Below are positions 19,305-60,864 of a DNA stretch of 64,000 bases, piece after piece. Below the pieces are notes generated by a model. It ran no database searches. It saw only the letters and a program-made list of their open reading frames with translations, and was not told the DNA's origin. Origin of the DNA: Pomacea canaliculata (lineage: Eukaryota; Mollusca; Gastropoda; Architaenioglossa; Ampullariidae); NCBI RefSeq assembly GCF_003073045.1, contig NC_037590.1, positions 34,542,327-34,606,326 on the forward strand, given 5' to 3'. The position numbers and the translations under genes were made by a program. Every line of letters begins with the position of its first letter. Positions within the stretch are counted from its first letter, which is position 1.

Positions 19305-21765
19305 TCACATACTGAAGATTGTGTAAGCAGTCAAGAGCACGGAGCCACACACAGTGAGGAGGTTGAGGGACACAGACCTTGAGGCGGCGTTTAAACCTTG
19401 TAGAAAAACAAATACAAGCAGCAACAGTAACTGTAACAAAATACTATACATTACAGGGCTTCTGCTAAGGCTAAATTCGTTGGGGTCCCAGGGACCCCTT
19501 CTTCAGATTTTTAAGGGGTCCCTGTTCTTCGCCCAAATTTGAAGGGGACCCCATTGACGAAAATTGAAGGGGTCCTCCGAACTTTTAATGCGTACTGTAC
19601 GCAATTTGTTGCGTAAGCAGAAGCCGTGTCATACATTATAACAGGAAATATTTTATATATTACTTAAAGAAATATTTGTATATTATTTAAAATATTTTAT
19701 ATTTAAAGGAAATATTTTATTTTACTAGGATATACATTAAGCTCTTTCTCACTCACTCATTCACGCACGTACGCACACACACAGCCAGTCATGAATGGCG
19801 TATAAACATAAATTCTGTACAGGTAGTATGTGACATAACATTGCTGTAAATTCTGTACAGGTAGTATGTTACTAACATTGTCATCATTGTCTCCAAACCC
19901 TACTCTATATACAAGTGCTGCGTTGCCGTGTCACACGTGAGTTCGACTTAGGATCAGCTGGAGGCTAAAGATTTGCATGTCACTACCTGGATCATTACCA
20001 ATGACAGCTTGCTGTGGATCGATGACTGCGAATGATTGATCACTTGCTGTAAAAGGCAGGCGATGCAGAGGCTTGCAATCTGGCCTTCACTTCATGCTCT
20101 GATGACTGTTAGCTAATAGATGTCAGTGCCGCTACAGTCACTAAGCAACGGAATTTATATCCTTTTATTTATAACCTAAAGAATGTATCTAGTTTCTGTA
20201 GGTGATACCCAGCAGACAGGAAATATCACATTAATCATCGGTTTGATTCTTGGGGGGGGGGGGGGTGTTTTATGATTTTAGCTTCCATGCCTTCCTTTCT
20301 CTAGGAAATAAAAGAGCATCACAGTACATGTTGTTGGGATAAAATGCTGTTTATATTAACACATATGACAATTATCTACTTACTACAAAAAACACCATTA
20401 TCCTTCATATTTTTTTCCAACATTGGGTAATATGACGACAACTCTACCTTGCAAGTCTCCTCAATACAGTTCACATAAGTCTGTAAAAGGCTGCAAGAAA
20501 AGGTATTTCTTCTTATATTCTGTGCATAATCGCATTTTAGTCTAAAGCTAAGGAAATATTTCAAGCTTGAAAAATGACAACACTAATTGAGATAAATTAT
20601 TGAACACTTTTAACTATTCTATATATGGCTAGCCGTTTTATATCTACCTTTTTAGTTTCTGAAATAATAAAACACTGGCAATTTAACACTTTTATGAAAT
20701 GGTAGCGTTTGAGTTTGCAATCAAGAAAAACTCAAAATGAATCAATTATATTAAGCACAATATATGTATAAACTCAAGTAAATGAATAGGAAAACAATGA
20801 GCTATGTTAAGAACATAGGGAAATATTTCTTTTATTCTTTATATTTGCAAAAAGAATAGTTTTGTAACACACGGGCAGATCTCATCTGTACTTTTTACTT
20901 CAGCCGATTCAAAAGAATTCATGCATGTTGTGGTGCAGTCGCAGTGTGCGAGGTTTATGAAGAAGGCTGCAAATAATTGTGAATAAGTTGTTGTAGAAAC
21001 TAATACACCAAAAATAAGAAATAGTTTAATCATTACGGCATGACATTTTAAACCAGATCAATGAGAAAGAAATAAGACGATGAGCTTGTACATACATGTT
21101 TGATCCTCTGAAAAAGTGACAAGGACTTCTCTTAAACAAAACAACAACTTTACCCTTTTGGTCTCTAGAAACATTCTAGAATACAACGAAATGACTTAAG
21201 GAACTGTTTCTTTTTGGGGATCGATCTTTACAGTGAATATATATGTGGACGTTATTACCAGAGTATCATTTGTGAAAAGTCTGAGATATAAATTTGTGTT
21301 TGAAAAAGATATTTCTCAACAACATGTAAAAAAAAAATCAAATGAATAATTTATATTTGACAGGTCTTTTGTGAATATATAAACTTATACTTCGTTCCAA
21401 CTTTTAAATAGAAAATTGATCAAGTATGAATACCTATTATAGTAAAAGTAAAGCGTTTTTATATTAAGTTATCCCCATGTAAGACGGACGCACACGCACA
21501 CACATTTACATGCACACGCGAACACACACACACATACACTTAGGCGCTTGCTTCCATAACCTTATGCAAATAACATGCACACATGCATTATGCTTCAACG
21601 TACCACATAAAACTATCACTCCAAATAAGAGATGAAACACTCACCAACGACAAGGCAAAGTAGCAAAGGGTCATTTATGGTTGAATAAATTACAAACATC
21701 TACTGATTGAAATTAACGGTTCAACACTCACCACTGGAAATACAGAGTGACAACACGTACTTCAT
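19305..21765 (-). CDS. Six-cysteine GPI-anchored-type secreted protein, paralog A
   Basis: Four exons: 21732-21765, 20873-20966, 20384-20490 and 19305-19396, phases 1/2/1, 327 nt, 108 aa. Residues 1-20 (MKYVLSLCISSAFFINLAHC) form the signal peptide, coded by exon 1 and the start of exon 2. The mature domain carries C22, C26, C42, C51, C56 and C78 (spacing 3, 15, 8, 4, 21). After C78 the sequence SLNAASRSVS leads into LNLLTVCGSVLLTAYTIFSM, a typical GPI-anchor signal with a likely omega site in NAAS. The exon 2 donor is the weak CCC|GTGTGT; paralogs D and E have GTATGT at the same place, which supports the assignment. The TATA position that reads TATATAA in B reads TACATGAA here (21879-21886), while a CCAAT box (attggc, 21920-21925) remains. 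Family unknown to me; expression not shown. Confidence 0.85.
19454..19630. mobile_element. hAT-like MITE in intron 3 of paralog A (177 bp)
   Basis: It begins CAGGGCTTCTGCTAAGG and ends with GCAGAAGCCGTGTC, imperfect inverted repeats of each other. It is flanked by a perfect 8-bp target duplication, atacatta (19446-19453 and 19631-19638). The matching intron of paralog B has the uninterrupted empty site (tatacattataacagg). The interior is a GGGGTCC/GGACCCC-rich palindrome. Confidence 0.92.
21645..21678 (-). pseudogene. Second copy of exon 1 of paralog A, start codon lost
   Basis: A 34-base segment ending in a good donor (G|GTGAGTG) lines up base for base with exon 1, but its first codon is ATA. 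It would read I-N-D-P-LLLCLVV-G. Equivalent copies lie upstream of exon 2 in B (26816-26849), C (about 34345-34377) and F (60744-60777). Only the F copy begins with ATG. Confidence 0.7.
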
Positions 21766-21878
21766 GATGAACAGATTAACAAACTTTGAGATATTTTAGA
21801 CCGTTGTCGCAATACAGTTTGTAACTGAACACACAAGGACAGACAGCATCACAATGACCCACTGAGGCTGTTTGTGTG

Positions 21879-21925
21879 TTCATGTACTCCACTCGCCATG
21901 GAGCACGGAACGTCTCAACGATTGG
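21879..21925 (-). promoter_or_regulatory. Promoter of paralog A with degenerate TATA box
   Basis: Aligned with paralog B, the TATA position reads TACATGAA (21879-21886) instead of TATATAAA. The CCAAT box (attggc at 21920-21925 on the plus strand) is kept, about 155 bp upstream of the ATG. Confidence 0.6.
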
Positions 21926-21960
21926 CTCCCGATTTTGTAACGTATGCGTGACGTATTAGC

Positions 21961-22782
21961 CACAATCTTATCGACTATCATCGCTGACGATTTATTAATA
22001 AATATCATTTGTTTAATCTCGTAACTAAAATTTTGTGTGAACACCCACACACTCAACACATCTTTACATCCATAGACACATTGTTTTGCCGTCTATGAGC
22101 TTAGCTAAAATGTTTTTCTGGTAAAAATGGGAAAATCAGGGAAGAGTGTCTCGTCATCGTTGTTATTAAGTGATATCCAGACATCTTAATGCTGCTTTAC
22201 CAGGCGGAGTATGGACAGCGTATCATAATTACAAAGACAAGGCCCTTATCCTTGAATTCCTCAATCTAGACGGGGTACCCCTCTTTGTAAGTACGGGTCC
22301 AATTTGAATCGCACTGAACAAACAAACAAACAAAAAAAAAAAGACCTTGTCTTTCCAGGAAACCAGCTTCTTTTTCTTTCGTTTCCGACACTGTCAGAGT
22401 TGAAGTACGGCAAGACTGCGTTAAAGCACACTGTGAAACCTGCTACCCACCAGCGAGTGACCCATACAAGCACTTGAAGAGATGTACTTGTTTAAAAGGT
22501 CAAAATTGTCAACATGGCGCACTTTGGTAACGATTGGCTGGATTATGTGTAATATGAAATAACTGAGAATGCATGGAGTATGCAATTGAGTGTGTCAAGG
22601 AGTATTTAATGGAGTATTTAAAAGAGTATACAATGGTTGTCATGACTGGAGGTATTATCTGAATTTTCTTGTTGTTCTCGTCGTCGTTATTGTTGTTGTT
22701 GTTGTTGTTGTTGTTCTTGTTCTTGTTCTTGTTGTTGTTCTTCTTGCCATCGTAATTTACTTTTCAGACTGCGAAAGAGTTT
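21961..22782. other. Upstream DNA of paralog A with a (GTT)n tract
   Basis: AT-rich DNA partly similar to the upstream DNA of B, C and F (ataaatat-catttgttta region). A GTT/GTC-rich microsatellite at 22675-22745 produces a meaningless poly-Val frame. No gene is seen. Confidence 0.6.
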
Positions 22783-23340
22783 TTCATCTTTGCTTTGTTT
22801 CACTACCTCTCATCTCATCCTTATCACTCTTTCCCCTCCCATAATAATGATAATAAAGCTTATCTACCCATTAAAATGGCAGGTTCAATGTGATTTACAA
22901 AAAGTAAAAAAATACTAAAATTATATTAATATTCATAATCAGCATACTAAACACAGTAATTTAAAACATCTTAACGCATGTTAATTGTCGTCCACACCTT
23001 GTTTTATTGTGCAGACGATACAGAAAGTGGTCATAAACTTTGTCTTTATGCACATGTGCAAACGATGCTGCGACGGTCATTCCCTCCCAGATATCGCAGC
23101 ATGTGACAAAGGCATGCGACGAAAGCACACCTGTGCTGTTGTGTACTCGTATGTGTTCTTCTCCGCAATGGACGTTTGTTACTTGTCCCTCAAAATGATT
23201 CGCTCAATGTAAATTTCTATTGCTATGAAACGTTGTCCTACATTAATGGAATTTCGAGATCCGCCTGCGGTTGCCGTGGCCGGACCTGACGAAGTGATGT
23301 CGAGGCCTGACACGTCACGCGCTCCGAACGTTCCTCATCC
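22783..23340 (+). repeat. Duplicated blocks, copy 2
   Basis: This is the second copy of the 16394-16530 and 17996-18345 blocks, joined here with only about 60 bp between them (22921-22981). It lacks the foldback element and the 230-bp MITE present at copy 1, so those insertions are probably specific to copy 1. Confidence 0.8.
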
Positions 23341-23548
23341 CTGCAGAAGATACTAAGGAGTGGCGCCATTAAACCCCGTTTCCTTGTGTTCCACAATAAT
23401 TATATTTCTGTACTTCAAAAATCACGCTGATAGGAATCTCTAAGCTTAGCAAGAAGGGATTGGTAGCAACTAGCTTTGTGATTTCCAGTTACAGAAACAG
23501 TAGGTTGTGGTCAGTACCAACTGCCCAACGCTCATTCAGACTGTCAGA

Positions 23549-23690: not shown

Positions 23691-24689
23691 TAGAAAGTTA
23701 TAGTGTCTCTTTGAACTTATGCTACGTTTAGTAATAATGAGAACTTACAATACACAGCATCACGACCAAGACAGATCACAGTCTCTGCGCAGACCATTAA
23801 TGATAAATGTTTTTTCAAAAAATATTTTCAAATTTCAGACGTCTAAAGAATGATACTGTAGTATTAACGTCCACTTATAAATATGTACTGTAAAGATCAA
23901 TTCCCACAAAGAAACAGTTCTCTAAGTCATTTCTCTGCATGCACTGGAGTGTTTCTAGAGACCAAAGGACAGTGTAAATTTGTTATTTTGTTACATTGCT
24001 CTCACATTTTATAGAACGCATTCTCACACACCTACACAGACAACACCTACACACAACCTTACATAAATGTACATACACGTGCATACAATAGTACACAGAA
24101 CGTAAATAGAATGTGAATAGCATTGTGCGGTTTTGATAAATTTAATGCAAATATCCACACGATTCAAACAACTGACTCATTCTAGAAGTTTAAACAAAAA
24201 TTGAGAATACAAGGTAAGGATTGTCCTAAAAAATATTCGAACCATTCACAAGGTTCTGATTCTTGTTATTTTAACTACAAAACTCACCTCGTCAGTCATC
24301 AATGGTAAGCGATGAAATATTAAAAAAAAAATATTTCGCTGAACAAGGCTCTACATTTATTCGTGGCACATGCTTTCTTAAAGACTTTCTTCATATAAGT
24401 ATCAAGTATGATATGTTGGCTTATTAGGCTTAACTATTTTTCACAATTGTGACCGCGACACATTTATTTTATATGTCAATTATTAAAAACTGTTGTGTAG
24501 AGTTGAGCTAAACATCTGGAACAAAACAGACATTTTAAAAACTAACATACAACAAAAGTTGTGCACATAAACAGTGAATGTGTGCTATTCCCATAACAAA
24601 TAAGAAGCTGAAATGCCTGTTATATTAGGTTAGATATTGTTACAGAAATAATTAAACAGTTCACTGTTTTGTCACACAGACTGAGAGGA

Positions 24690-26936
24690 TCACATGCTGA
24701 AGATTCTGTAAGCAGTCAGCAGCACGGAGCCACACACTGTGAGGAGGCTGAGGGACACAGACCTTGAGGCGGCGTTTAAACCTTGTAGAACAACAAATAC
24801 AAGCAGCAACAGTAACTGTAACAAAATACTATACATTATAACAGGAAATTTATATATATTACTTAAAGAAATATTTGTATATTATTTAAAATATTTATAG
24901 CTAGAGGAAATATTTTATTTTACTAGGATATACTTTAAGCTCTTTCTCACTCACTCATTGACGCACCTACGCACACACACAGCCAGTCATGAATTGTGTA
25001 TAAACATAAATTCTGTACAGGTAGTATGTGACATAACATTGCTGTAAATTCTGTACAGGTAGTATGTTACTAACATTGTCATCATTGTCTCCAAACCCTA
25101 TTCTATGTACAAGCGCTACGTTGCCGTGTCACACGTGAGTTCGACTTAGGATCAGCTGGAGGCTAAAGATTTGCATGTCACTACCTGGATTGTTACCAAT
25201 GACAGTTTGCTGTGGATCGGTGACTGTGAATGATTGATCACTTGCTGTAAAAGGCAGTCGATACAGAGGCTTGCAATCTGGCCTTCACTTCATGCTCTGA
25301 TGACTGTTAGCTAATAGATGTCAGTGCCGCCACAGTCACTAAGCAACGGAATTTATATCCTTTTATTTATATCCTAAGGAATGTGTCTAGTTTCTGTAGG
25401 TGATACCCAGCAGACACTAAATATCACATTAATCATCGGTTTGATTCTGGGTGGGTTTTATGATTTTAGCTTCCATGCCTTCCTTTCTCTAGGAAATAAA
25501 AGAGTATCACAGAACATGTTATTGGGATAAAATGCTGTTTATATTAACACATGAAAATTATCTACTTACTACAAGAAACGCCATTATCCTTCATAAGTTT
25601 TTCCAGCAATGGGTAATATGACGACAGCTCTACCTTGCAAGTCTCCTCAAGACAATTCAGATAAGTCCGTATAAGACTGCAAGAAAAGTTATTTCTTCTA
25701 ATATTCTGTGCATAATCGCATTTTAGTCTAAAGGAAATATTTCAAGCTTAAAAAATGACAACACTAATTGAGATAAATTATTGAACACTTTTAACAATTC
25801 TATATATGGTTAGCCGTTTATATCTACCTTTTTACTTTCTGGAATAATAAAACACTGGCAATTTAAAACTTTTATGAAATGTAGCCTTTGAGTTTGCAAT
25901 CAAGGAAAACTCAAAATGAATCAATTATATTAAACATAATATATGTATAAACTCAAGTAAATAAATAGGAAAACAATGAGCTATATTAAGAACATTGAGA
26001 AATATTTCTTTTATCCTTTATATTTGCAATAAGAATAGTTTTGTAACACACGGGCAGATCTGATCTTGACTTCTGACTCCTCTGACAGCCGATTGAAGAG
26101 AATTCGTGCATGTTGTGGTGCAGTCGCAGTGTGCGAGGTTCATGAAAAAGGCTGCAAATAATTGTTAATAAACTGTTGTAGATTTACACAGAAACTAATA
26201 AGAAATAGTTTAATCATTACGGCATGACATTTTAAACCAAATCAATTGAAAGCAATAAGACGATGGGCTTGTATATACATATATGATTCTCCGAAACACG
26301 GACTTCTCTTAAACAAAACAACAACTTCCTTTTGGTCTCTAGAAACACTTTAAAATACAACGGAATGACTTAAGGAACTGTTTTAATTTGGGAATCGATC
26401 TTTACAGTGAATATATATGTGGACGTTATTACCAGAGTATCATTTGTGAAAAGTCTGAGATATGAATTTGGTTTGGAAAAAGATATTTCTCAACAACATG
26501 TAAAAAAATCAATTGAATAATGACATTTGTCAGGTCTTTAGTGAATATGTAAAACTAATACTTCGTTCCAACCTATAAAAAGAAAATTGATCGAGAATGA
26601 GTACCTATTATAGTAAAAGTAAAGCGCTTTTATATTACGTTATCGCCATGTAACACGGACGTACACACACGCGCATTTACATGCACACGCGAACATACGC
26701 ACACACACACATATGTGCTTGCTTCCATAACCTTATGCAAATAACATGCACACACGCGTTATGCTTCAATGTACCACATAAAACTATCGCTACAAACAAG
26801 AGATGAAACACTCACCAGCAACAAAGCAAAGTAGCAAAGGGTACTTTATGGTTGAATAAATTACAAACATCTATTGATTGAAATTAACGGTTCAACACTC
26901 ACCACTGAAAATACAGAGTGACAACACGTACTTCAT
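24690..26936 (-). CDS. Six-cysteine GPI-anchored-type secreted protein, paralog B
   Basis: Exons 26903-26936, 26052-26151, 25570-25676 and 24690-24781; 333 nt, 110 aa. The signal peptide is MKYVLSLCIFSAFFMNLAHC. The mature cysteine spacing is 3, 17, 8, 4, 21. The C-terminus LNAASRSVSLSLLTVCGSV/LLTAYRIFSM is a GPI-type signal. Compared with paralog A, the loop between the second and third cysteines is two residues longer and almost wholly different (TNSLQSAVRGVRSQDQI against MNSFESAEVKSTDEI), while introns and exon 4 are nearly the same. The promoter has TATATAA at 27051-27057 and a CCAAT box at 27093-27098. An ATG-less second exon 1 lies at 26816-26849. Function unknown. Confidence 0.86.
26816..26849 (-). 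pseudogene. Second copy of exon 1 of paralog B, start codon lost
   Basis: A 34-base exon-like segment with an intact GTGAG donor, reading IKYPLLLCFVA with ATA in place of ATG. Confidence 0.7.
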
Positions 26937-27050
26937 GATGAACAGATTAACAAACTTTGGAAGATCTTAGACCGTTGTAGCAATACAGTTTGTAACTGAA
27001 CACACAAGGACAGACAGCATCACAATGACCCACTGAGGCTGTTTGTGTGT

Positions 27051-31430: not shown

Positions 31431-34400
31431 TCAGAGATTGAAGATCCCGTATGTTGTGAGCAGCATGGCGCCAAAGACAGCGAGGAGGCTGCCAGAATGA
31501 GTTCTGGAGGCAGCATTCAGATCTGGAACAAATAAAATAAAATTATATGACAAACAATTATCATCAAATGAAGGCTAAAAGAAAGTTACTAAAGGAGTAA
31601 ATTGGAAGAGTAGGGAACCATTGAACGGCAAATTTTGAATTTATGGACGGGGAGGACCTCAGGTAAGTCGGTTCGTGGGAATCATAACATTGGAGGAGGC
31701 TTGTACGCCTGAGTTTATCGTTGATCCACCTGAAAATTTCATCTAGTCCACGAGTACTTAGTCCGCTATACAAGAAACGGGAACAAAGCCATATAAACTC
31801 ACAAACAGATTTTATTTTTGACTTGAAATTTTTTGCTCCCTCATTTACGTTTCGCAGTCGTGTTTCTCTGCACTTATGCTATAATACTTTGTTGTACGTG
31901 TTGAAAAAAATCTAACCAATAACACGCATTATTTTAGTACAAATAAGCATAAATAAAGTTATTTATTCACTTACTGCATGAAACGCCATATTGCTTCAGC
32001 ATTTCCTGAGCCGCTGGATAAAACGGTGACAAATCTACCTGACAAGATGTCTGAAGACAGTCCAGGTATTTATGAAAAATACTGCAACAAGGTGTTAATT
32101 TAGAAATAAAATATGCAAAACAATTAAAAACACACTTAAATTGAAAAGGGTAAAATAATTTTCTCATTTAGTCAAGGGATTTTCTTGAAGATATTTAACT
32201 TGAAATATAAAAGCTTGAGGGACCGTGGATTGATCAAAGTTGCAAGAGTGCCCCTAGGAGAGACTACGTATTTGCATACATTCAAGTAATAAATAAGAAA
32301 ACTATGAACTGAGATACAATAAGAACATAGGGGAATGTGAATTTTTCATGCTTCATATTTGTAAAAGTAATAGTTTAATAACACACGGGCAGATTTGAGC
32401 TTCAGTTGTTAACCCTTGAGCAGCCGATGTATAAGCGTCCAGACAAGTCGAGACGCAGTTGCAGTGGGTAAGGTTTATAAAGAAAGCTGCAAATAAATGT
32501 TGATAAACTGTTTACAGATTTACACAAAACCAATAGAAAATATTTATCACCAGGGCATGACATTTTAAACTAAATAAAGAAAGGAAGCGGTTAAGCAGCA
32601 TCTTACTATGACAACAAAATTAAATATCACACGCAAGTTTCAACTCAATCGTAATGAATGGCAACCACTACCAGTAATGGACAGCAGGAAATGACGTCAG
32701 AGCTACCATTCACGAGCAACTGATGTTCATAATCGTGTTCACTATATCTGAAGAGAGCGAGATGGTACACAATGTCTTCATGTCTCTTGTGCAAAACATT
32801 GTGACGAGAATCGCGTAGCGCGTGGCTATGTAGAATATATCACTCCATTACTGACCTTTGTATTACATAACTGAATTATGCTGATGCCAAAGACACCTGG
32901 AGTTGTGACGGTGGGCTTGTATATAGATATGTCATCCTCCGAAATAGTGAATCGGACTTCTCTTAAATAAAACAACTTTACCCTTTCTTTTGGTCTCTAG
33001 AAACACTCTAGTGCATGCAAGGAAATAAATTAAGGAACTGTTTCCTTTTGGGAGTAGATCTTTACAGTTTATATATATATAGAGAGACGTTAATACCACA
33101 GCACTATTTTTTAGAAGTCTAAAATTTGAACATATTTTTTGAAAAATAATTTTCCCAAAACTTGTAAAGTGAATCAAGTGAAATATTTCACACTTGACAG
33201 ATCATTTGTGGTTGTATAAACTCGTAACTCATTCCAACCTTTAAGTAGATTAAAGATGAATACCTATCATAGTGTAGAGTAGACGAACTGACCCTCGCTA
33301 AAGGCCAACACCACGTCCCCCAGCGCCAACTCAGTCTGTTCCTCTTTGGTGTTCTAGGGAGGAAGTTCCCAAGGAAAATTTTCTTCTAAAATTCTAACTC
33401 TCGTTCGTCGAGTGCGTTATCTCATCTCTACTTCATGTTTTTTTTTTTTCTTTGCCCCATCCACTACGTACCCGCACTCAGCCGACCTTGGAATCCACAA
33501 AGGACCCTGCTTTACTTTCCCAGACAAAAGTGTCTTTTCTTCGGTGCGTCAGCACCACGGATCTTCGTGTGTGTTCTATCTGCTGCTGTCACCACGACAT
33601 GGACAACACAAATATCTCTCTCGCGCTAGTGATACAGTTCATCTATTTCACACACGTACGACATGCTAGCATTCGTTGGGACTGACACGCTCACACAGGT
33701 AAATATGTTCAAAGACAAAGATTTATTTACATAATTTACACATACCACTACTATATCTATTTTAACCTACCTACCTAGCCTACTAAAAAATAGCACCTGG
33801 GATGGGGACAAAGGGAGTTGAGTGACGCGAGCCTCTTTCCAGAGGGACCAAAACACCTTGCGGCAAATTGGTACTTCTCACTTGTTCAGAACCAAAGTTT
33901 TACTGGTTTTCTAAGCATGACCAGCCTCCTCTCGGTAAACAGGTGCACTGACTTTAGCCTGCTATTTATACTGGACAGTCTGGGTTCTACGTCACACGAT
34001 GTTGTCGTCCGTCTCGCGCTGCGCCGCTCGCGAGACCAAGTGATGGGGTGGAAGGGGATGCGGGGTGGAGGGAACAAGCTCTGTCAACGGTACACGCTGC
34101 CTTAAACAAGCGTTCCCGCTACAATAGTACTGATAAAGCATTTTTATACTAAGCTATACCCATGTACCACATATACACCCGCACGCGTGCACACACACAC
34201 ACATATGAACGCACACACACACACACACGAACGCAGGCACATGATTGAACAACCACATACAGATTATAATATTTGTGCACACATGCATATTATGCTTCAA
34301 TGTACTACAGAGATCTATTGCTCCTAACAAGAGATGAAACACTCATTGACAAGGCAAAATAGCAACGGGTACTTTATGCTTGAATATACTACAGAAATAT

Positions 34401-34464
34401 ATTGATTAAGGCAAAGGGTTAAACATTCACCTGTAAAAATGTAGACTGACAACACGTACTTCAT
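31431..34464 (-). CDS. Six-cysteine GPI-anchored-type secreted protein, paralog C
   Basis: Exons 34431-34464, 32387-32486, 31975-32081 and 31431-31522; 333 nt, 110 aa. The signal peptide is MKYVLSVYIFTAFFINLTHC. The mature domain begins NCVSTC, with spacing 3, 17, 8, 4, 21, and includes QICP and YLDCLQTSCQVDLSPFYP. The C-terminus SGSLLAVFGAMLLTTYGIF is a GPI-type signal preceded by LNAAS. Intron 1 is enlarged by a solo LTR at 33273-34123. The second exon 1 copy (about 34345-34377) has lost both its ATG and its donor. The TATA region is degenerate (GATAAGATAAAAG near 34591-34605), while a CCAAT box is at 34640-34644. Function unknown. Confidence 0.86.
33273..34123 (-). mobile_element. Solo LTR of an LTR retrotransposon (fossil)
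   Basis: An 851-bp insertion that starts TGTAG and ends CTACA, flanked by a 4-bp target duplication atag (33269-33272 and 34124-34127). In minus orientation it carries a TATAAATA box near 33962-33975. The equivalent intron 1 positions in paralogs A, B and F lack it, so it entered after the paralogs separated. No internal region is present. A Gypsy-like origin is possible but not shown. Confidence 0.75.
34175..34240. repeat. (CA)n-rich microsatellite in intron 1 of paralog C
   Basis: CA-rich tract interrupted by gaacgc and similar. Comparable CA tracts lie at the same intron position in A (about 21485-21540), B (about 26665-26715) and F (60598-60680). Confidence 0.8.
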
Positions 34465-38324: not shown

Positions 38325-38368
<44 letters not shown>

Positions 38369-38885: not shown

Positions 38886-40140
38886 TATAATATGCATGCA
38901 TTTGTCAATACACACAGCGGCACACAGTTATTAGAAAATGATTTCGATTCAGCAAAATGTAGTCAAAGGTATCTAGGCAAACATATCTGTTGTGGAATTT
39001 CTGTTACCTATCGCACGCCTGGTTACTTCTTTAGATCTGTTAGGCTGTCCACACGAAGATACAATTTCACAGGCCAAGATGAATATTACCACACACGTGC
39101 CATACGCACATACAGTACTTATATAATCACACACAGGTTTTACGGGTCACGGCCGCTTAAGCAGCACAAAGCAAACATATCAGCACATGAACACCTGAGC
39201 TATGGTAAATTTACATTAATATCAAGATTTTTAAAATAAAAATACTAGCTTTCAGCTAACACCCAGGTTGAAGAAAATCAATCCAGGTCCTCACAAGCCT
39301 TGGATATATCGTAAATAGAATTAAGAATAACACACAGTAATTTGGTATCCAACGGAATCCACAGTCGCTTTACACCTCAGTTAAGTAAAAGATAAATATC
39401 TACACAGCAGTTAAGAGTTAGCGGATAGCCACACAGTTTCTCCAGGTAAGTAGACTGATTAAGATGATAGCACACAGCAGGAAATTTTCATTTAAGAAGG
39501 TAAAATTCACACAACAGTTTAGAATATGCGAACAACCACACAGTATCTACTCAAAGCAGGTTACTTTTCATAGCAGTTACATGAAGATAGGTACAAACCA
39601 CAAACTCATTTCTAATTCATGTCTGCCAACTCCCATCCATATTTATTTCTTTTCCCTCTCTACCTTCATCAATCCCCATTACATTTCAAATTCTGTTTAT
39701 ACGCTGTCAGCTGAAGTAGAAAACTATCCCCACTTTCCCACATTCTAATTACACCGCGGTATTGACCTTGCCGGACCTGCTAGGTGTGAAGTCTTTGAAA
39801 AAAACCAACAGGGTCAGCAGACTAAAGATTTCATTCTCTCGACCCTCTACCCTCAACAAAAATGAATAACTCATTGTACCACCAGCAGTCCCTCTACATA
39901 CCCGCCACAATGGAAAAACATTTAAACTGCATTTGCTATTATGTCGCGGCACACCCGTCCGTGACACCTCTCACCCCACCTCCCAAACAGCCAACAGGTT
40001 TGGAAAAGGCGAGTATGGTGATACATACTGTAACAAAGGGACCAGAGAGTCGAGGAGTTTCAAGATCTAGAAACCGTAGGCCAGCAACGGACGTGGTGTC
40101 AATGTCGTTGTTAGCGAGAAATCGAGAAACTGTGATGTCA
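38886..40140. other. Spacer with degenerate cacacag-rich repeats
   Basis: From 38910 to about 39560 the motif cacacag recurs irregularly (for example 39327, 39402, 39432, 39471, 39536), which keeps some frames open without protein character. No gene is recognised. Confidence 0.45.
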
Positions 40141-40345
40141 TTTGAATTAATTACTATGTACTACGAATTCCAGATCAGCTCCATTCGCCATACTCTGTCC
40201 ATCTCAACCACCAAAATTCTCTTCTGCTCATTTTTTCTGTCTAAACTAGACTACTGCAACTCTCTTCTTAGTGCCTGTCACATTATCAGTGAAACATTCA
40301 CTGAGCTACAAGACCAGCTAAATAACTTCTGTCTTGATTAATTTA
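40141..40345 (+). mobile_element. LINE fragment (CR1/L2-like reverse transcriptase, C-terminal part)
   Basis: The frame reads ISSIRHTLSISTTKILFCSF then SKLDYCNSLLSACHIISE and LQ, matching the conserved region IRHxLSxxATKTLVCSFVLSRLDYCNSLL of CR1/L2-type LINEs. It is truncated at both sides and ends in a stop soon after. Confidence 0.75.
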
Positions 40346-43053: not shown

Positions 43054-44723
43054 TTACAGTCCGAAGGTTTGGTAAGCAGCGAGTAGCGGGCCCACGAGGG
43101 CGGTAAGTAAGCTGACAGACAGCGATGTGGAGCCTGACAGATCTGGAAATCAGTCAAACATTGTTATGCACTACTAAAACGTGGTCAGTGTTTATTTTTT
43201 CTGTTGCATATAAAATTTATTTTATATTAAATGTGAGCTTTTGCCGGATACTAGCGGTAAACCTATCGCTATTTATTTAAACACTCCGAACAAATTCTAA
43301 TCAGTGTCCCTGTCGAGTCCCTGAAACCCCTTTTCGAAGTCACTCATTAGGGATACTTCAGTTTTTCAGTGTTAGTTACATACACTCATCACCAGGCCCG
43401 TTCTTAGCCCCCGCGGGGCCCGAGGCAAAGGGCATGTGCGGGGCCCTCACGCCACGGCTGACTACACTTCCATATGCCTAGTTACCATATCAATCAAAAG
43501 CGCGGGGCCCTAGGCAGATGCCTCGTCCGCCTGCCCCTAAGCACGGCCCTGCTCATCACACTTCTAAAGTAGATGAACCAGCAAAAGAATTACAAGAACA
43601 ATGATTTTAAAAGTTCTTTTTTACCAGGATTTGAAGTTTTTAGTCTATAAGTTTGTTCATTTCTATTTTACATAATACCATCCAGTTGTGAACACCTATG
43701 CAGCTAGAACATGTTAGAAATCAAGGACTTACCGCATTCAGAGCCCAAATTGGCCTGTAATTCTTGGATCTTAACAGTTACATCCCAGCCGCAGGACTTC
43801 AGACAATACAGGTATGTCTGAGCGTTTCTGTAACATATGTTCGCTGACATGAACTATGAATGTGTAAGTTGAGTGTGTTAAATTAGCTTAAAGAAAGTAT
43901 TTCTAGAGAGTGGTATCTGTATCTATTGCGTTTCTAGACACTTATCAGTTGAAAGTGGGTTGCTGCTTGTTATCTGAAACTTTTATTAAGACAATTACAG
44001 TTTCTAAGAAATATTATCTCTCCTGCACATCTATTTAAAGAGAAAAATAAACGTGCAGGGAGACTAGAATATCATTCTGAAAGCGGACAAAGAACGAAAA
44101 ATGGAGTAAAATATTTGATTTCTTCAGCATGACCAGCTTTGACACTTCCCAACATACTTGCATATCTCAGTGGCGGTTTTTACGGTTTGTGCAACCCTGA
44201 GCCATTCATCCACACAGGGTTCTTCGCAACTAGCACTGTTCACCAAGCCTACGACAAAGGCTGAAATTAAAAGAGCATTAAATGATTAAAAAAAATTAAT
44301 TCCAAATGAAAACTCTTTTAAGATATGAACGTTTACTCTGCATGTCTACTGAACTTGTCAATAAGAAACGATTTGAATGAAGTATTTTGTTAGTAATTTC
44401 ATGTTTCTGTCTTGTTTTCTTATGACAACAGACTTTCATTTTTTCAATTACAACCTGTTGTTTGACAAAGATAGTTGGTCTTCTCAGTTTTAATTGTCAC
44501 TGCAAAATTTTTTTTAGTGAAAACAAAAGTAGCAAAATAACTTAAATACTTTCTTCTAACAGTAAGATTTTATTCAAGACAGCTTACTTAAACGCATTGC
44601 TCCTTAAGAGTAAAAAGTCTATAAATGAGACAAGAATGTCCATAAAATATAAACAGAACGACGAGAGAAGAGAATTGTAAGATACTTACCAGAAAAAAAG
44701 CAGAACCCCAATGCGTACTTCAT
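43054..44723 (-). CDS. Six-cysteine GPI-anchored-type secreted protein, paralog D (divergent)
   Basis: Exons 44690-44723, 44158-44260, 43733-43827 and 43054-43142; 321 nt, 106 aa. The signal peptide is MKYALGFCFFSAFVVGLVNS. The mature domain starts ASCEEPC and has spacing 3, 17, 8, 3, 18, four residues shorter in exon 3 than the others. The C-terminus is DLSGSTSLSVSLLTALVG then PLLAAYQTFGL, again a GPI-type signal. The exon 2 donor is the good GTATGT. D has the same exon phases but is the most diverged member and has no second exon 1. A MITE sits in intron 3 and a SINE-like element in the promoter. Function unknown. Confidence 0.85.
43393..43551. mobile_element. hAT-like MITE in intron 3 of paralog D (159 bp)
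   Basis: Ends CAGGCCCGTTCTTAG and CTAAGCACGGCCCTG are inverted repeats. A perfect 8-bp target duplication, ctcatcac, flanks it (43385-43392 and 43552-43559). It has a GC-rich palindromic interior and no coding capacity. Confidence 0.92.
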
Positions 44724-48621: not shown

Positions 48622-51600
48622 TCAAAGGTTGAGGATTCTGTAAGCAGTGAGCAGCATGGCGCCAGAAACAGTGAGAAGACTGCCAGACAGGGTCCTGGAG
48701 GCGACATTCAGGTCTGGAAGCAGGTAAAACAAAGTAAATATGTTATTGTTTTCATGAATCTTTCTGAAATGAAGCTTTGTTGTTGTCGTTAACAGCAATT
48801 TATTTACACGATTGTTTTCTTGTATCACAGTTGGAGTAATAGTGAAGAGAGCTAAGGCATCTGATTTAGTACAAGTGGTACTAGGAAATTTAAGTTCGAA
48901 ATTTCTTTAAATGTTGAAGAGATATGTATCTGCACCAACAATTTTAAGACTGCGAAACAACGAGCAGCAACATTAATACGTTGGTGCGCGAGCATATACA
49001 CCGATAAATAAAAAAAGGTAAGCACACCTTTATATATATATACACTCACACACTACATCACACACTACACCACACACTACACAACACAAACACAACTGTT
49101 GAACATAGACAAGCAATATATCCCCGTTCTGTGAGGGACGAAAAGTAATCTCTAAACTATTTGCTGCTGAAGAAGAGGAACTTGAAGAAAGCAAAAAAAC
49201 TCAATTTTATAGACAATTTATTCTGAAAATAGCATAATATTTTTTCTTCTGATTTTGAACTTTACGATTAAAGCTTCTGCTGCATGTAGAATAGTAAAAT
49301 GACAATGTCGTCTACAGGAAATCTAGTTATGCTGATGATGATCCACAACACATAAAGATACTATTCCCTTACACACGTACACAGACATAACCGGCTTACC
49401 ACAAGTGTAGCCCAAACTTTTCAGCTTTTGCTGCAGCGCGTTTTTATATGGTGTAAAATCTGCATGACAAGATGTCTCGATACATGTTACGTATTGGTTC
49501 ACAAGTCTGCAACAACAAATATATTAGGAGGTACTTAATGTCTAAAGGTAGTGATACTCACTATGGACATCAATATACGGGTATGGAGTGGGTAAAGCAA
49601 AGCAAAACACTTTACTTTCAGAGGAAAATTTCTTTGAACCTGATGTACAAGTGCGTACACAATCTATTCCAACTACATCTTAAAATATCTGACGTTATGA
49701 ACTACATTTGATTTACATTACTTAATATTATTTTCTCTTTTCCAAATGTTTCTTTGTAGCCATCTAGGTAGGTAAAAGAGAAGAAATATTTTAGCAAGCA
49801 GACTCATGAAAAAGATGACATAGAATGTTCACTCTTGATACTAGTTGTTCACATGTAATTTAGTAACATACGTGCAGAGTCTGGCCTGTGTGAGGATGGC
49901 TTCATATTGGACTGCTGCGGTGAACGTGTTCTCGCAGTCTGTCACGCAGTCGCAGTTTACGAGGCTTATGAAGAAGGCTGGAATTTAATGTAGAAAATAT
50001 CATTAAATAATCAACATCACTGTCCGGGTTTTCAAAAATTCACTAATGAGATTACAAGACTTGAAATTATGCTCATGCTTTGGCTTCAGATTACTCACCC
50101 GATGAACACAGATGTATGTATACACATTTTCTCATTCACACAAATAACCTGGCTATAGCCTAAGCACATGAACTTTGTGAAACCATTAATATCGACTGCT
50201 AGTGATTGAAAATTACACTGATGCTATGGTCACGTGATATATAGGGGGATACACTTGGTGTAATATTCATGCAGTGTGATGCATGGTTATAACTAAAAGT
50301 CAATGTTTGTAACCAGTTAGGAGTTCAGAGTCTTAGTTAATGATGGATTTTTTTTGATTGGATAAATTAATTCTTTTTATCAGTAAGACCATTTACAGAG
50401 CGCTTATAATATTATTATGTGCAACGAAGTAAGTGATTATATGTGAATATAGTGGTTAAATAAAGAGTATGGTTGGCCCTTCCATTCCATAGGTCTGGGC
50501 GGCACGTAAACCCTTCTGCATTGTTGCTAACATTCTTCGACAAACTTTAAGTTAGAAAACCGTGGATAAACGTAAGCCCAACAAAAAAAAAAAAAAAAAC
50601 AAACCCAAAACCAAAAAAAAAAAAAAAAAAAAAACAACTGAGTTTACTGAAAATATTTCAAGCCAGTGGCTACTCCAATATGCGTTTTGTACTCGCTTGA
50701 TTCGGAACACCAACCGTTTACAAAAGATATGATTAAAGTAACACTTTTATTTGTCAGGTGCTTGTCCAAAGAAGAGATAAACAGACATATTCACATAAAC
50801 GGAATCACTGACGCCCATATTCGCATGAAAAAAAACACCTCTCACTTCTACAACAGACACACCAACACATACACAAGGTAAATTACAGACACACGTTATA
50901 CACGCTCATGGTCAGGACAGGGTCAAAGGGAACCCCGTCCTGAAACAATGCCTCTTCAGTTTTGACTTAAAGGTGGTAAGAGAATCACAGTGACAAATTC
51001 TGAGAGATAATATGTTTAGAGTTGATGGAGCTTTGTCTTATTCAGTGGGACTCGCAAAAGCTTGGTGTTAGAAGAGCGAAGAAGTCGTGCGGTCGTATAG
51101 CTGGGAGTGAGTTCGGAGAGGTACCAAGGACCGGTGCCAGAAACGGCAGAATAAGTCGGAGTGGAAAGTTATACAACTGGAAAGTAGGCTACACGATCAG
51201 AGACTGCGAGCCAGTGAAGAGAGCGAATGACGGGCGAGAGATGTTCACATGGAGATGGGCTGTTAGACTGTGACGTCATTGCAATACAAGGGTAGGTTGC
51301 AGAGTCAAGGCAACAGAAAATAACTGCGTTGTCATACCTAGCCATATCTTATTGGTGAAATATGCAAATTTCTTCTTTTCATAAAATACTATCTTTCCAC
51401 CATCGACATAACTGTGCAAACATCTCAATAAGGACAGCATAAGACATAACTAATACTCAGTTTACATAAAATACTCCTGAAAATTGAAACTAAAATATGG
51501 CCTTAAAACTCAATGTATGTCTGACTTTGTAGAAAGAAGGAAATCGACGTAAATAACAGAATGCTAGTCACAGATTACCAGATTATCAAACTACATTCTG

Positions 51601-51658
51601 CTGAAAGGAAAGATGGGCACTTACCAGTCCAAAGGCAGAATAGCAGTGTGTGCTTCAT
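48622..51658 (-). CDS. Six-cysteine GPI-anchored-type secreted protein, paralog E
   Basis: Exons 51625-51658, 49872-49977, 49400-49506 and 48622-48713; 339 nt, 112 aa. The signal peptide is MKHTLLFCLWTAFFISLVNC. The mature domain begins DCVTDC, with spacing 3, 19, 8, 4, 21, including YVTCIETSCHADFTPY. The C-terminus is DLNVASRTLSGSLLTVSG then AMLLTAYRILNL, a GPI-type signal. The exon 2 donor is GTATGT. Intron 1 is enlarged (49978-51624) and holds A-rich tracts and a LINE fragment. The promoter has TATATAAAG at 51769-51777 and CCAAT at 51815-51819. No second exon 1 is seen. Function unknown. Confidence 0.86.
49035..49090. repeat. Short tandem repeat (cacacactacat/c, about 12-bp unit)
   Basis: Several near-identical units of cacactacatca/cacactacacca in intron 3 of paralog E, just after a (TA)n tract at 49031. 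Confidence 0.8.
50583..50635. repeat. A-rich tract
   Basis: Two poly(A) runs separated by caaacccaaaacc, in intron 1 of paralog E. Confidence 0.8.
50925..51250 (-). mobile_element. LINE fragment (CR1/L2-like C-terminal region)
   Basis: On the minus strand the pieces VIRSLHWLAVSDRV, SAVSGTGPWYLSELTPSY, TTARLLRSSNTKLL and LKRHCFR match, in order, the end of a CR1/L2-type LINE polyprotein (SLHWLPV, YLSEL, ARxLRSS, LKTHLFR). The pieces are in different frames, so this is a decayed 5'-truncated copy. It lies in intron 1 of paralog E. Confidence 0.7.
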
Positions 51659-52900: not shown

Positions 52901-53299
52901 CCAACCAGATTTTTACCTCCTGCTGCGCTTTACTTCTGAAGGAGGGAATGACTAGTGAAACAATTTTTATTCCCTCCACCGCTCTTGAACTTCCACATAC
53001 ACCCAGTAGGTTTAGAAAAAATGGTGGTGGGTTCATTGTGTTTTGCACTGTGCCAGCAACTAAGGATATATAATGGCAATAGAAATTAGGTGATCATAAC
53101 GCGATATGTAGATCGCGTAAAATATATCGGTCACAAGGCCCCACAACTACCTACTGTATGGCTGTCACATGTCAGGATCTAGAGACGTTGAGTCAATAAA
53201 AGCTAACTGCCTTCACCGGTAACTAAACATCGGAATGAATGACATCCTATAATGCTACGGTTTGCGACTCTCTTGCACTCAACGATGATAAAACGGAAA

Positions 53300-54260
53300 C
53301 CCTCCTATGTTCGAGAAGAAGAAATCCAGTCAACAAATCACATCAAGGTGGGCAAAACAAACATCACTTGCGTCTTCCGTCAGGAATCTGGGATTTATTG
53401 TCACTGCAGACATGACTCTTGCTAAACAAGTCACAGCTGTCTGTCAGTGTGTCTGTTATGATAGACAAGTTACAGGTGTCTGTCAGTGTGTCTGTTATGA
53501 TAGACAAGTTACAGGTGTCTGTCAGTCTGTCTGTTATGAACTATACAAGATCAGCGCCATCCGTCACATTCTGTCTATGCATGCTTCCAACACTCTTGTC
53601 TGTTTGTTTGTTTAATCCGGACTTGATTACTGCAACTCCTTGCTTGCTGGCTGCCCTGAATACATTCTTCACAAACTCCAGAAAGTACAGAACTCTACTG
53701 CTCGTCTGGTGATAAGAGCTAGAAAATGGGACCACACCACCCCTCTCCTTCGTTTTCTACACTGGCTTCCCATCCGTTCTGGCATCCAGTACAAACTGTC
53801 TGTGCTGTGTTGTCATTTCTTTGCCGGCACCTGCCCTGATTATTTCTCTGAAATGCTCTTCCCTCACACCCAAGCTAGACAACTCCTTTCGTCATCTGAT
53901 TGTCTCCTTACTTTTCCTGCCACTAAAACAAGAATGTATGGCCACAGGATTTTTGTTATTGTGCAGTGAAACAATGAAACTCTCTCTCCTTTTCCATACC
54001 CGCCACCTACCCACAATTGAATCCTTTAAATGTGCACTGAAAACGCATCTCTTCCGTAAACATTACTCCTAACAAACATTCCAACAATGCCAGTCCTTTT
54101 TCACACCCTTCCTTTTGCAATATCATGTTACTCTCAGCTCTTGTTTTTGTTATTGGTTCCTCTTTGTGTTTTCTGTATTTGGTTTTATTCCTCGCCTAGT
54201 ACGGTTGTTTATTCTTATTTTTTATGTTATTTGTTTTCCTTGTGACATCCATGTTATAGA
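53300..54260 (+). mobile_element. LINE, 5'-truncated (CR1/L2-like reverse transcriptase C-terminus and 3' end)
   Basis: Coding pieces in order: SVRNLGFIVTADMTLAKQV, SAIRHILSMHASNTLVC, DYCNSLLAGCPEYILHKLQK, VQNSTARLVIRARK, LRFLHWLPIRSGIQYKLSVL, CPDYFSEMLFPHTQARQLLS and FKCALKTHLFRKHYS. They lie in at least three frames, so the copy is inactive. A unit of about 42 bp (caagttacaggtgtctgtcag...) occurs three times at 53427-53540, an expansion inside the LINE. The 3' region (54135-54250) matches the tail at 57768. Confidence 0.85.
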
Positions 54261-54264
54261 CTGA

Positions 54265-57767: not shown

Positions 57768-57998
57768 GTTCAGCTCTTGTTTTTTGTTATTTGATTCCTC
57801 TTTATGTTTTCTGCATTTGATTTTATTCTTCGTTTAGTACGGTTGTTCATTCTTTTATAGATCATATGTTATTTGTTTGTTTTCCTGTCCCTCTTATGCT
57901 GTCCATGTTTTGTTCTTGTTCTTAAGCGCTAAGAGCATGCTCCTTAAAAGTGTGAGTATGTGCTTTACACATTTTGCATTTTTTTTATTATTATTAAA
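57768..57998 (+). mobile_element. LINE 3' tail (CR1/L2-like)
   Basis: Matches 54135-54250 (cagctcttgtttttgttatt, tttagtacggttgtt-attc) and continues to cgctaagagcatgctccttaa and a terminal (ATT)n run, the expected LINE end. Confidence 0.75.
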
Positions 57999-58164
57999 CA
58001 CAAAGAATGCTAAGCAAGAAAAATATAACCTAAAAAAGAAATACTTTATAAAATGTTTTTGTTGACAACTTGAGAAACACTCAAGGTGTAAGTGGCATGT
58101 ACAATGACAGAAAATAATAGTACAGCCGACAGCAAGTTCATTGCTGCATACAGGTAGACAGGAC

Positions 58165-58215
58165 TTGATGTCGAAGGTCCTGTCAGCAGTGAGCAGCATG
58201 GCACCAGGGAGACTC
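58165..58215 (-). pseudogene. Orphan exon 4 relic of the six-cysteine family
   Basis: On the minus strand, cctggtgccatgctgctcac followed by tgctgacaggaccttcgaca matches the GPI-signal exon of paralogs C and E (GAMLLTAYRI) with changes that remove TAY. No other exons of this copy are visible, so it is a remnant of a lost family member downstream of F. Confidence 0.65.
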
Positions 58216-58229
58216 CATTATCAAACACT

Positions 58230-58640
58230 GGTTATTTTACGTATAAACTCACATCAAATGTAAGCGAAGAGACAAAAAAAAAAATAATTGAGATATATAA
58301 GGCTGTATATTCAGTCATGGCATGTGCTTTCTTCGTTAAGCATAAAGTAAAATATGCTGGATTAAACATATTTCGCATTTGTGACTGTCACATTATTTTT
58401 CAGATGTCAATGGTTAAAAGCTGCTCATTAGATTTTGGGCTACCCTTCTAGAAGACAACAGCCATTTTTTAAACTAGCATACAAGGGAATTAAGCTAGAA
58501 CAAACAAGGTCAACAAAGTTGTGCATGTGGACTGTTCACATAAGAAATATGCTAGCTGAGAAAACTATGAGGAAAAAAATATGTGAGGCTAGATAATGTT
58601 ACAGAAATAATTAAACAGTTCACTGTTTTCTCACTCAGAC
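58230..58640 (-). repeat. Downstream DNA shared with paralogs A and B
   Basis: Landmarks tcagtcatggcatgtgcttt, agctgctca/gta, acaacagccatttt and agataatgttacagaaataa line up with 18950-19290 and 24350-24670, so unit F duplicated together with its 3' flank. Confidence 0.7.
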
Positions 58641-58648
58641 TGAGAGGA

Positions 58649-60593
58649 TCACATGATGAAGATTCTGTAAGCAGTCAGCAGCGCGGAGCCACACACTGTG
58701 AGGAGGCTGAGGGACACAGACCTTGAGGCGGCGTTTAAATCTTGTAGAAAAACAAATAATATAAACTTTCATGATAATTCACCAACGTCTTGATAAGCTT
58801 GTACAGAAGGAAAGTGAGCAACGACAAATAATACAGTTAATTAGAATAAGATAATTAAGTTTTATTTAGTGAGGTCTCGTTTGTAAAATCCATGAATCAA
58901 TATATGACAATAGTTGTACTAGTGGTTCATAAAAAACGTTAGGCTGTGAAGAAATACAAGAATCAACAGTAACAGTAACTAAATACTATATATTATTACA
59001 GGAAATATTTCATGTATTACTTAAAGAAATATTTGTATATTAAATTGTATATTATTTAAAGAAATATTTTATATATTTTAGTATACCAGGATACACTGTC
59101 TCACTCACACACCCAAATCTAGTCATGAATAGTGTATAAGCATAAATTCTGTGCAGGTAGGATGTGACATATATTGTTTTCTCATACGTTAATGAAGGAA
59201 ATATTTAGTACTTCCAGGTGATGTTTAGCAGACAGGTAAAGTCCCATTAATCGTGGGTTTAATTCTGGGGGTTTCTTAGATTTTAGCTCCCTTTCTCTAG
59301 AAAATAAGTATATCCAGTGTATCCGTGAATAGCATGTTGTTGCGAGGAAATGCTGTTTACATCAGTACACATAACCATTATCTACTTACCACAATAAACG
59401 CCAAGAGTCTTCATATCATTCTGCAACTGTGCGTAATATTGCGAGAGATCTACCTGGCACGTTTGCTCCAGACAGGTTAGAAAAGTCTTCATTATGCTGC
59501 AAGAAAATTATTTATTCTTTATATCTGTGACCTAATCGCATTTTAGTCAAAGTGTAAAAGAGCATTTTAAGTTTAAAAATGGCAGCACTAATTGGAAATG
59601 ATTAAGCACTTTAAGTAATTTCTGCCTGTTTTTGAAAAAATTAATAATGAAGTAGAGGCCGTTAGAATGTTTTAATGGGTGCGTTTTAGTGCCCCTCCCC
59701 CAGCAAAATTAAAAATGAATGATTCAGAAATTATGTATATGTATAAACTCAAATAAATAATAAAACAATGAACTGAGATGTGTTAACATAGTAAAATATT
59801 TCTTTTATGCTTCATATTTGTAATAGTAATAGTAATAGTAATAATAATAGTAATAGTAAAGTAACACACGGGCAGATCTGCGCTGTAACTTCAAATGTTT
59901 TGAGAGCGTTCGCATAATCCGCCCCGCACGTACTGGCGCAGTAGCAGTGTGCGTAGTTTATGAAGAAAGCTGCAAAAAATGTTGATTGACTGTTTACAGA
60001 GAAACCGATAGAGAATAATTTATCATCAGGACATGACATTTTAAACTAAATGAAAAAAGCAGTTGAGCAGCATCTCATGTCTCTTGCGAGGACAGTGTGA
60101 CGAGAATCGTGTAGTACATGGCAATGTAAAATACATCGTCCATTACCGACTTTTTTATTATATGACTGAGATATGTTTTGCCGTTATGATGGTGTGCTTG
60201 TATATACATATATGGACCTCAGAAACAGTGACATGGATTTCTCTTGGACGAAAGAACAACTTTACACTTTCCTTTACTCCTTAGAAATAATCTAGAGAAT
60301 GCAGCGAAATGACTTAAAGAACTGGTCCTTTGTGGGAATCGACCTTTACAGTGAGTTTATGTGGATTCTAATACCACAGTATCATTTTTAAAAATCTGAT
60401 ACATGAAAAATATTTTTTGAGGACAGAAAGTTCGAAACATCATGTATACAATCAAGTGAAATATTTCAAACTTGACAGATCATTGGTGGTTGTGTAAACT
60501 CATACCTAGTTCCAATTTTTAAATTCAAAATTGATCGAGCATGAATACAAGTTAAAATAAAGTTAAAGTATCTATAAAGCTAAACTCATAGAT

Positions 60594-60680
<87 letters not shown>

Positions 60681-60864
60681 CCTTCATTATTCTTTAATGT
60701 ACCTCAGAAATTTATCGTTCCAAACAAGAGATGAAACCCTCACCAATGACAAGGCAAAGTAACAAAAGGTTCTTCATACTTAAATATGCTACAGAAGTAT
60801 ATTGACTGAAACAAGGTGCTCAGCACTCACCAGTAAAAATGCAGAATGACAACACGTACTTCAT
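58649..60864 (-). CDS. Six-cysteine GPI-anchored-type secreted protein, paralog F
   Basis: Exons 60831-60864, 59870-59969, 59390-59496 and 58649-58740; 333 nt, 110 aa. The signal peptide is MKYVLSFCIFTAFFINYAHC. The mature domain begins YCASTC, with spacing 3, 17, 8, 4, 21, including FLTCLEQTCQVDLSQYY. The C-terminus DLNAASRSVSLSLLTVCG then SALLTAYRIFIM differs at only three bases in 92 from exon 4 of paralog B, while exons 2-3 differ widely. An alternative first exon (60744-60777) keeps ATG and donor. The promoter has TATATAAAG at 60994-61002 and CCAAT at 61032-61037. Function unknown; GPI anchoring is inferred from sequence only. Confidence 0.86.
59819..59859. repeat. (TAATAG)n microsatellite next to exon 2 of paralog F
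   Basis: A TAATAG/TAATAA tract in the start of intron 2. If the intron were retained, it would be read on the minus strand as a run of leucines. Confidence 0.85.
60598..60680. repeat. (AC)n microsatellite in intron 1 of paralog F
   Basis: An uninterrupted CA dinucleotide run of about 83 bases, in the same intron position as the CA-rich tracts of A, B and C. Confidence 0.95.
60744..60777 (-). CDS. Alternative signal-peptide exon of paralog F
   Basis: A 34-base exon copy with ATG (60775-60777) and donor GTGAGGG. It reads MKNLLLLCLVI and ends in phase 1, so it would splice to exon 2 at 59969 in frame to give MKNLLLLCLVIAFFINYAHC, an equally good signal peptide. The exon is 54 bp downstream of the usual exon 1. 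Degenerate ATA-starting copies exist in A, B and C. Its use could mean alternative promoters or mutually exclusive first exons. Confidence 0.5.

Follow-up and report, generated by a model that had tools for sequence, protein, structure and literature searches.

A tandem array of six small, six-cysteine genes with a putative membrane-anchoring tail in Pomacea canaliculata

Lineage-restricted tandem families of surface proteins are common in animals, and the genes of the Ly6/uPAR proteins, for which Pfam holds an LU model, also lie in tandem clusters. Among small helical proteins, the plant alpha-hairpinins are described as carrying a CX3C...CX3C motif on two antiparallel helices with cysteine pairing 1-4 and 2-3, and the motif is also reported for short potassium-channel blockers of scorpions and cone snails (PMC7191063). 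Saposin-like conotoxins and con-ikot-ikot are described as helical and disulfide rich, with related signals and variable mature regions (PMC10437998). In snails, the GRC and PTC2 clusters are reported to encode diverging single-pass membrane proteins tied to schistosome resistance (PMC7494358). Here, we analyze a stretch of 64,000 nucleotides (nt) from Pomacea canaliculata (contig NC_037590.1, positions 34,542,327 to 34,606,326; referred to as the window), the minus strand of which carries, at 19305-60864, six intact four-exon genes, A to F, as rebuilt from the sequence. Their best explanation, to which we give an even chance of being right, is a lineage-restricted tandem family of surface mini-proteins held by a glycosylphosphatidylinositol (GPI) anchor.

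Six four-exon genes on one strand

In building the six models, splice choices were tried within 4 nt. All six genes have an ATG and a stop, GT-AG borders are present at all 18 introns, and the intron phases (1, 2, 1) are common to the array. Exon lengths are 34/94/107/92 nt in A, 34/100/107/92 in each of B, C, and F, 34/106/107/92 in D, and 34/103/95/89 in E, the modulo-3 value of each exon being constant across the copies; the products comprise 108 (A), 110 (B, C, and F), 112 (D), and 106 (E) amino acids. Exon 2 ends at a GTGTGT donor in A, B, C, and F and at GTATGT in D and E. These models agree with the initial annotation, which had described six four-exon genes on one strand with these exon sizes and phases, products of 106 to 112 residues, and a split signal peptide. 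The latter is encoded by exons 1 and 2, and the N terminus is hydrophobic in every copy (15-residue hydropathy maximum, 1.87 to 2.39).

When the exon peptides of gene A were used in tblastn, the matches listed (the best 14 per exon) included exons 2 to 4 of A, B, C, D, and F and exon 1 of A, B, C, and F. Gene E was reached by weak tblastn matches only (exon 4, E of 0.01; exon 2, E of 0.73), and its exon 1 falls inside a DNA match to the gene F exon 1 region. The least certain exon is exon 1 of gene D (51658-51625), which is absent among the matches listed for gene A exon 1 and was found by pattern, not homology. With candidate stretches limited to 22 to 79 nt, the 6.5 kb upstream of D exon 2 holds five open ATG-to-donor candidates with a strong in-phase donor (49, 34, 25, 28, and 37 nt); we chose the sole 34-nt candidate, the peptide of which looks, by eye, similar to those of exon 1 in the other genes. 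An alternative exon 3 donor, located 3 nt earlier and preserving the frame, exists in A, B, D, and F. Its use would remove the last cysteine in D and F, not in A and B, and the longer exon 3 was adopted in all models. The exons are as follows.

21732..21765, minus strand: gene A exon 1, first part of the signal peptide (tblastn, splice model)
20873..20966, minus strand: gene A exon 2, end of the signal peptide and Cys1-Cys3 (tblastn, splice model)
20384..20490, minus strand: gene A exon 3, Cys4-Cys6 (tblastn, splice model)
19305..19396, minus strand: gene A exon 4, GPI-like tail and stop (tblastn, splice model)
26903..26936, minus strand: gene B exon 1 (tblastn, splice model)
26052..26151, minus strand: gene B exon 2 (tblastn, splice model)
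25570..25676, minus strand: gene B exon 3 (tblastn, splice model, AlphaFold2 model of its 35 residues)
24690..24781, minus strand: gene B exon 4 (tblastn, splice model)
34431..34464, minus strand: gene C exon 1 (tblastn, splice model)
32387..32486, minus strand: gene C exon 2 (tblastn, splice model)
31975..32081, minus strand: gene C exon 3 (tblastn, splice model)
31431..31522, minus strand: gene C exon 4 (tblastn, splice model)
51625..51658, minus strand: gene D exon 1, least certain (pattern, splice model)
49872..49977, minus strand: gene D exon 2 (tblastn, splice model)
49400..49506, minus strand: gene D exon 3 (tblastn, splice model)
48622..48713, minus strand: gene D exon 4 (tblastn, splice model)
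44690..44723, minus strand: gene E exon 1 (DNA match to F exon 1 region, splice model)
44158..44260, minus strand: gene E exon 2 (weak tblastn, splice model, exon profile)
43733..43827, minus strand: gene E exon 3, shorter, with Cys4-x3-Cys5 (splice model, exon profile)
43054..43142, minus strand: gene E exon 4 (weak tblastn, splice model, exon profile)
60831..60864, minus strand: gene F exon 1 (tblastn, splice model)
59870..59969, minus strand: gene F exon 2 (tblastn, splice model)
59390..59496, minus strand: gene F exon 3 (tblastn, splice model)
58649..58740, minus strand: gene F exon 4, probable gene-conversion tract (tblastn, splice model, comparison with gene B)

The exon profiles are hidden Markov models of exons 2, 3, and 4. 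They score the six copies at 52 to 74 bits each, a range to be read with the caveat that the profiles were built from the same six copies. Across the 2901 six-frame segments of the window everything else stayed below 10 bits, revealing no further copy or relic. Judged from their sequence, the six loci are almost certainly real coding genes.

TATA-like elements lie at a similar place in four of the six genes, as TATATA at -121 (B), -119 (D), and -138 (F) and as GATAAAA at -135 (C); in gene E, TATATA occurs only at -203. By eye, a CCAAT precedes the position of the TATA element in A, B, C, D, and F, not in E. An AATAAA or ATTAAA follows within 900 nt of the stop in B, C, D, E, and F. In the region upstream of gene A (21766-22025), A carries GTACATGAAC where its duplicate B has GTATATAAAC.

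Cysteines, predicted helices, and the C-terminal tail

Among 62 ectodomain columns, only the six cysteines and one glycine (1 of 56 non-cysteine columns) are invariant. The six-cysteine pattern recognized in the initial annotation is thus borne out in every copy, with the spacing C-x3-C-x15/17/19-C-x8-C-x3/4-C-x18/21-C. Gene E alone has x3 between Cys4 and Cys5 and x18 between Cys5 and Cys6; the other five have x4 and x21. Up to the last cysteine, the ectodomain measures 56 to 62 residues and is acidic (charge, -1 to -6).

Three segments, the limits of which we set from the cysteine pattern, exceed shuffled sequences in hydrophobic moment at the helical angle of 100 degrees (p = 0.003, 0.007, and 0.006), with no excess over shuffles at the strand-like angles of 160 or 180 degrees. 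The structure prediction that the initial annotation had suggested gave two helices (residues 2-12 and 18-30) for exon 3 of gene B (35 residues, modeled by AlphaFold2 with five paralogs), at a mean predicted local distance difference test (pLDDT) score of 89. Exon 2 looks amphipathic-helical, and its assignment as helix 1 comes from hydrophobic periodicity only. Taking the exon 3 model and the hydrophobic moments together, we lean toward a mature protein that forms a bundle of three antiparallel helices. Of the helical hairpin proposed initially, the helical nature of exon 3 stands, while the sequence favors a three-helix arrangement over a hairpin of two.

In such a bundle, helix 1 would have Cys1 and Cys2 at its beginning; helix 2 would carry Cys3 where it begins and Cys4 and Cys5 where it ends; and Cys6 would follow helix 3. 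We propose the pairing 1-5, 2-4, and 3-6 because it would join neighboring helix ends: Cys1-Cys5 and Cys2-Cys4 would clamp helices 1 and 2 together in the manner of alpha-hairpinins, and Cys3-Cys6 would connect the beginning of helix 2 with the membrane-proximal end of helix 3.

In all six proteins, a C-terminal hydrophobic segment runs to the very end (15-residue peaks, 1.5 to 2.0), and small polar residues directly follow Cys6 by eye (LNAAS, LNVAS, and LSGST). From these features, the tail is likely to be a GPI signal, and a GPI anchor is predicted.

Pfam returned no match at E up to 10 for any of the six proteins, nor at E up to 1 for five of them. We take as chance both the single NCBIfam match (E of 0.24) of the one member searched and the best matches among PDB sequences (E of 0.39; gene E alone, 0.45), a further PDB search giving none. 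Phage records gave no tblastn match to gene C, the only copy used, Rfam gave none at gathering scores, and no tRNA was found. Among the matches listed in the open-licence literature, none fitted as a prior description by its title or the start of its abstract. The designation "undescribed" in the initial annotation thus holds for Pfam, NCBIfam, PDB sequences, and the listed literature matches, and no wider than these. Apparently the fold is unlisted, neither Pfam nor, by sequence, the PDB offering a relative, and a public genome may well already contain the family, annotated as uncharacterized proteins.

Constraint, duplication, and surroundings

Over the whole coding sequence, omega is 0.53 and differs from 1 (twice the log-likelihood difference [2dlnL], 20.95), so the coding constraint is real. 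With branch lengths of their own, omega is 0.60 (confidence interval [CI], 0.44-0.83) for the ectodomain, 0.40 for signal plus tail, and 0.32 (CI, 0.18-0.53) for the tail; the hydrophobic tail, described as GPI-like in the initial annotation, is thus under constraint. Without the invariant cysteines, the ectodomain gives 0.77, not different from 1 (2dlnL, 1.84). Tree length is 6.8 for the ectodomain versus 3.3 for signal plus tail. Under shared branch lengths, the corresponding omegas were 0.83 and 0.28 (2dlnL, 53.6), with 1.05 for the ectodomain without the invariant cysteines. Since the omegas converge when branch lengths are free per region, the value of 53.6 reflects mostly a rate difference. 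Relaxed or positive selection on the ectodomain was considered and dropped, as the hint vanished under the same condition. Comparison of M2a with M1a gave a 2dlnL of 0.0 for the ectodomain and 2.6 for the whole coding sequence, with no supported site class above 1.

In the A-B comparison, divergence is higher in exons 2 and 3 (24/201) than in the introns (123/1833; Fisher p = 0.0096) or in introns 2 and 3 only (Fisher p = 0.0006), but about 10% of intron windows of the same size are as divergent as these exons. For A-F and B-F the outcome is alignment dependent: in one alignment exon 3 differs by 30 to 32% versus 16 to 25% for introns, and in the other the introns reach 32 to 35% with no exon excess. 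Diversifying selection was dropped as a claim.

A and B stem from a recent tandem duplication and share four blocks of 88.9 to 95.7% identity over about 3.8 kb in total, and F and C show older similarity to both. The whole-coding-sequence tree joins A and B, then F, with C, D, and E opposite (supports, 99, 99, and 80 for D+E); in the tail-only tree, C pairs with D (support, 54). In exon 4, B and F differ at 3 of 92 positions, with a dS (NG86) of 0 over 30 tail codons, whereas 55 of 269 positions differ in the 300 nt past the exon (Fisher p = 2.7e-5 versus exon 4). The near-identical tract extends from about 20 nt before exon 4 to about 47 nt beyond it, with differences in 8 of 160 columns; its downstream edge is clear and its upstream edge uncertain, the introns being unalignable there. 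Gene conversion is the simplest cause and has probably homogenized exon 4 of B and F, strong constraint being the alternative.

Sequences 3' of A (16392-16529 and 17995-18334) are 95.7% and 91.4% identical to sequences 3' of B (22783-22920 and 22976-23336), so the recent duplication unit extends past the genes. A block of about 180 nt recurs in intron 1 of A (21135-21318), B (26331-26484), C (32971-33152), and F (60248-60420). An inverted copy between A and B (23801-23992) is 76 to 83% alike and closest to that of C. An old mobile element or a moved regulatory block is suggested.

Elsewhere in the window, a gene at 3394-8706 (minus strand) contains two RAMA segments, 8488-8706 and 8005-8211 (Pfam E of 8.6e-15 and of 7.2e-8, the latter with 32.8 bits, just below the curated 35.2), and, within 3394-3975, a JAB segment (Pfam E of 2.3e-5) holding WYHSHP...DPTLKDID; we take this gene to be MPND-like. 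Two plus-strand open frames, 53616-54072 and 39826-40341, gave no Pfam match at E up to 1 and carry SGLDYCNSLL and SKLDYCNSLL motifs, presumably from reverse transcriptases of retrotransposons without long terminal repeats (non-LTR). A 39-nt unit is repeated about 2.9 times (96% matches) at 53426-53539, within the open frame 53292-53615.

Alternative explanations and comparison with known systems

If the array encodes GPI-anchored mini-proteins, removal of the signal peptide and the GPI signal would leave a three-helix protein on its anchor. The cysteines would hold the fold while other residues change between copies, and each copy would present a different face to a ligand. Unequal crossing-over would make the copies, and gene conversion would preserve the likeness of the anchor exon among some copies. 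A role in recognition or adhesion at the cell surface has, in our estimate, slightly less than an even chance. Several observations weigh against this picture. For gene A, the 260 nt upstream hold no TATA element and the 900 nt past the stop no canonical poly(A) signal (neither AATAAA nor ATTAAA); A is possibly a weakening copy with its coding sequence still intact. Fitted alone, the signal peptide has an omega of 0.63 (CI, 0.31-1.3), not confidently below 1. The exon 3 model, folded alone, reaches a predicted template modeling (pTM) score of 0.45, exon 2 of gene C folded alone gave no usable model (pLDDT, 49), and the disulfide pairing is derived from geometry. Positive selection appeared in no test, and the function in immunity or in gamete or tissue recognition raised in the initial annotation therefore remains speculation. 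Finally, B, D, and F have an arginine five residues from the C terminus, which is unexpected in a GPI signal.

Because of this arginine, the hydrophobic end may instead be retained as a membrane-spanning helix followed by a very short tail, making the products type I single-pass mini-proteins without GPI. We consider this unlikely, although the hydropathy peaks of 1.5 to 2.0 in all six tails and the position of the arginine just past the hydrophobic stretch would fit, and snail clusters of single-pass membrane proteins offer a precedent (PMC7494358). At most about five residues would be left on the inner side, serines occur within the hydrophobic stretch, and the LNAAS, LNVAS, and LSGST following the last cysteine would, by eye, suit a GPI cleavage site. 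Alternatively, the tail could be a cleaved propeptide of secreted venom, mucus, or antimicrobial-type peptides, as the likeness of Cys1-x3-Cys2...Cys4-x3/4-Cys5 to the alpha-hairpinin motif of scorpion and cone-snail potassium-channel blockers (PMC7191063) might suggest. The constraint on the hydrophobic tail at the very C terminus (omega, 0.32), an ectodomain that is acidic (-1 to -6) unlike cationic antimicrobials, and the lack, by eye, of a dibasic site ahead of the tail make this quite improbable.

An adhesion protein or receptor cofactor with redundant copies, its ectodomain diverging mostly by drift, is possible but rather doubtful. It would agree with an ectodomain omega of 0.60, which becomes 0.77 without the invariant cysteines and is then not different from 1 (2dlnL, 1.84), and with the lack of a supported site class above 1; yet six intact copies are kept with no relic in the window, and TATA-like elements are similarly placed in four of the six genes. 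That the loci are chance open frames or a decayed mobile element is hardly credible. The window is AT rich and repeat rich, and the similarity is partly plain segmental duplication (A and B), but six copies with conserved phases, 18 of 18 splice sites, and an omega below 1 already contradict it.

The array is ordinary in kind. If the GPI-anchored reading is true at the protein level, it would provide a GPI-anchored folded domain of very small size, to our knowledge among the smallest, and a compact, testable scaffold with six natural variants on one three-disulfide frame. Tandem, diverging surface proteins in snails have been tied to parasite resistance (PMC7494358). The GRC and PTC2 clusters share with the array the layout of clustered, diverging surface-protein genes and serve as a precedent for it; they encode single-pass transmembrane proteins, and the words cysteine and GPI are absent from the main text of that report (PMC7494358). 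Saposin-like conotoxins and con-ikot-ikot, with a helical, disulfide-rich build and related signals ahead of variable mature regions, resemble the predicted array proteins. However, the saposin-like class is described with ten conserved cysteines and introns all in phase 1, whereas the array has six invariant cysteines, phases 1, 2, and 1, and a hydrophobic tail, which rules against membership in that superfamily (PMC10437998).

The spacing of the two alpha-hairpinin cysteine pairs is matched exactly (CxxxC plus CxxxC) in gene E only; the other five have CxxxC plus CxxxxC. The described plant members have four cysteines in 28 to 45 residues (PMC7191063), whereas all six array proteins have two further invariant cysteines, and the array adds a probable third helix, a hydrophobic C-terminal tail, and an acidic domain. 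An alpha-hairpinin motif extended by one more helix and disulfide would be the nearest structural idea. With the Ly6/uPAR proteins (lynx), described as small, disulfide-rich single domains of which many are GPI anchored, the array would share its general design, but the LU domain is described as a beta three-finger fold, whereas the array proteins, with six cysteines, appear helical: exon 3 models as two helices, and none of the six proteins matches a Pfam model at E up to 10. By analogy, and as a long shot, the array might be a helical counterpart of Ly6/lynx, this lineage's own GPI-tethered, three-helix, three-disulfide array of copy-specific recognition or channel-modulating modules, with a binding face free to vary and an anchor exon kept alike by gene conversion.

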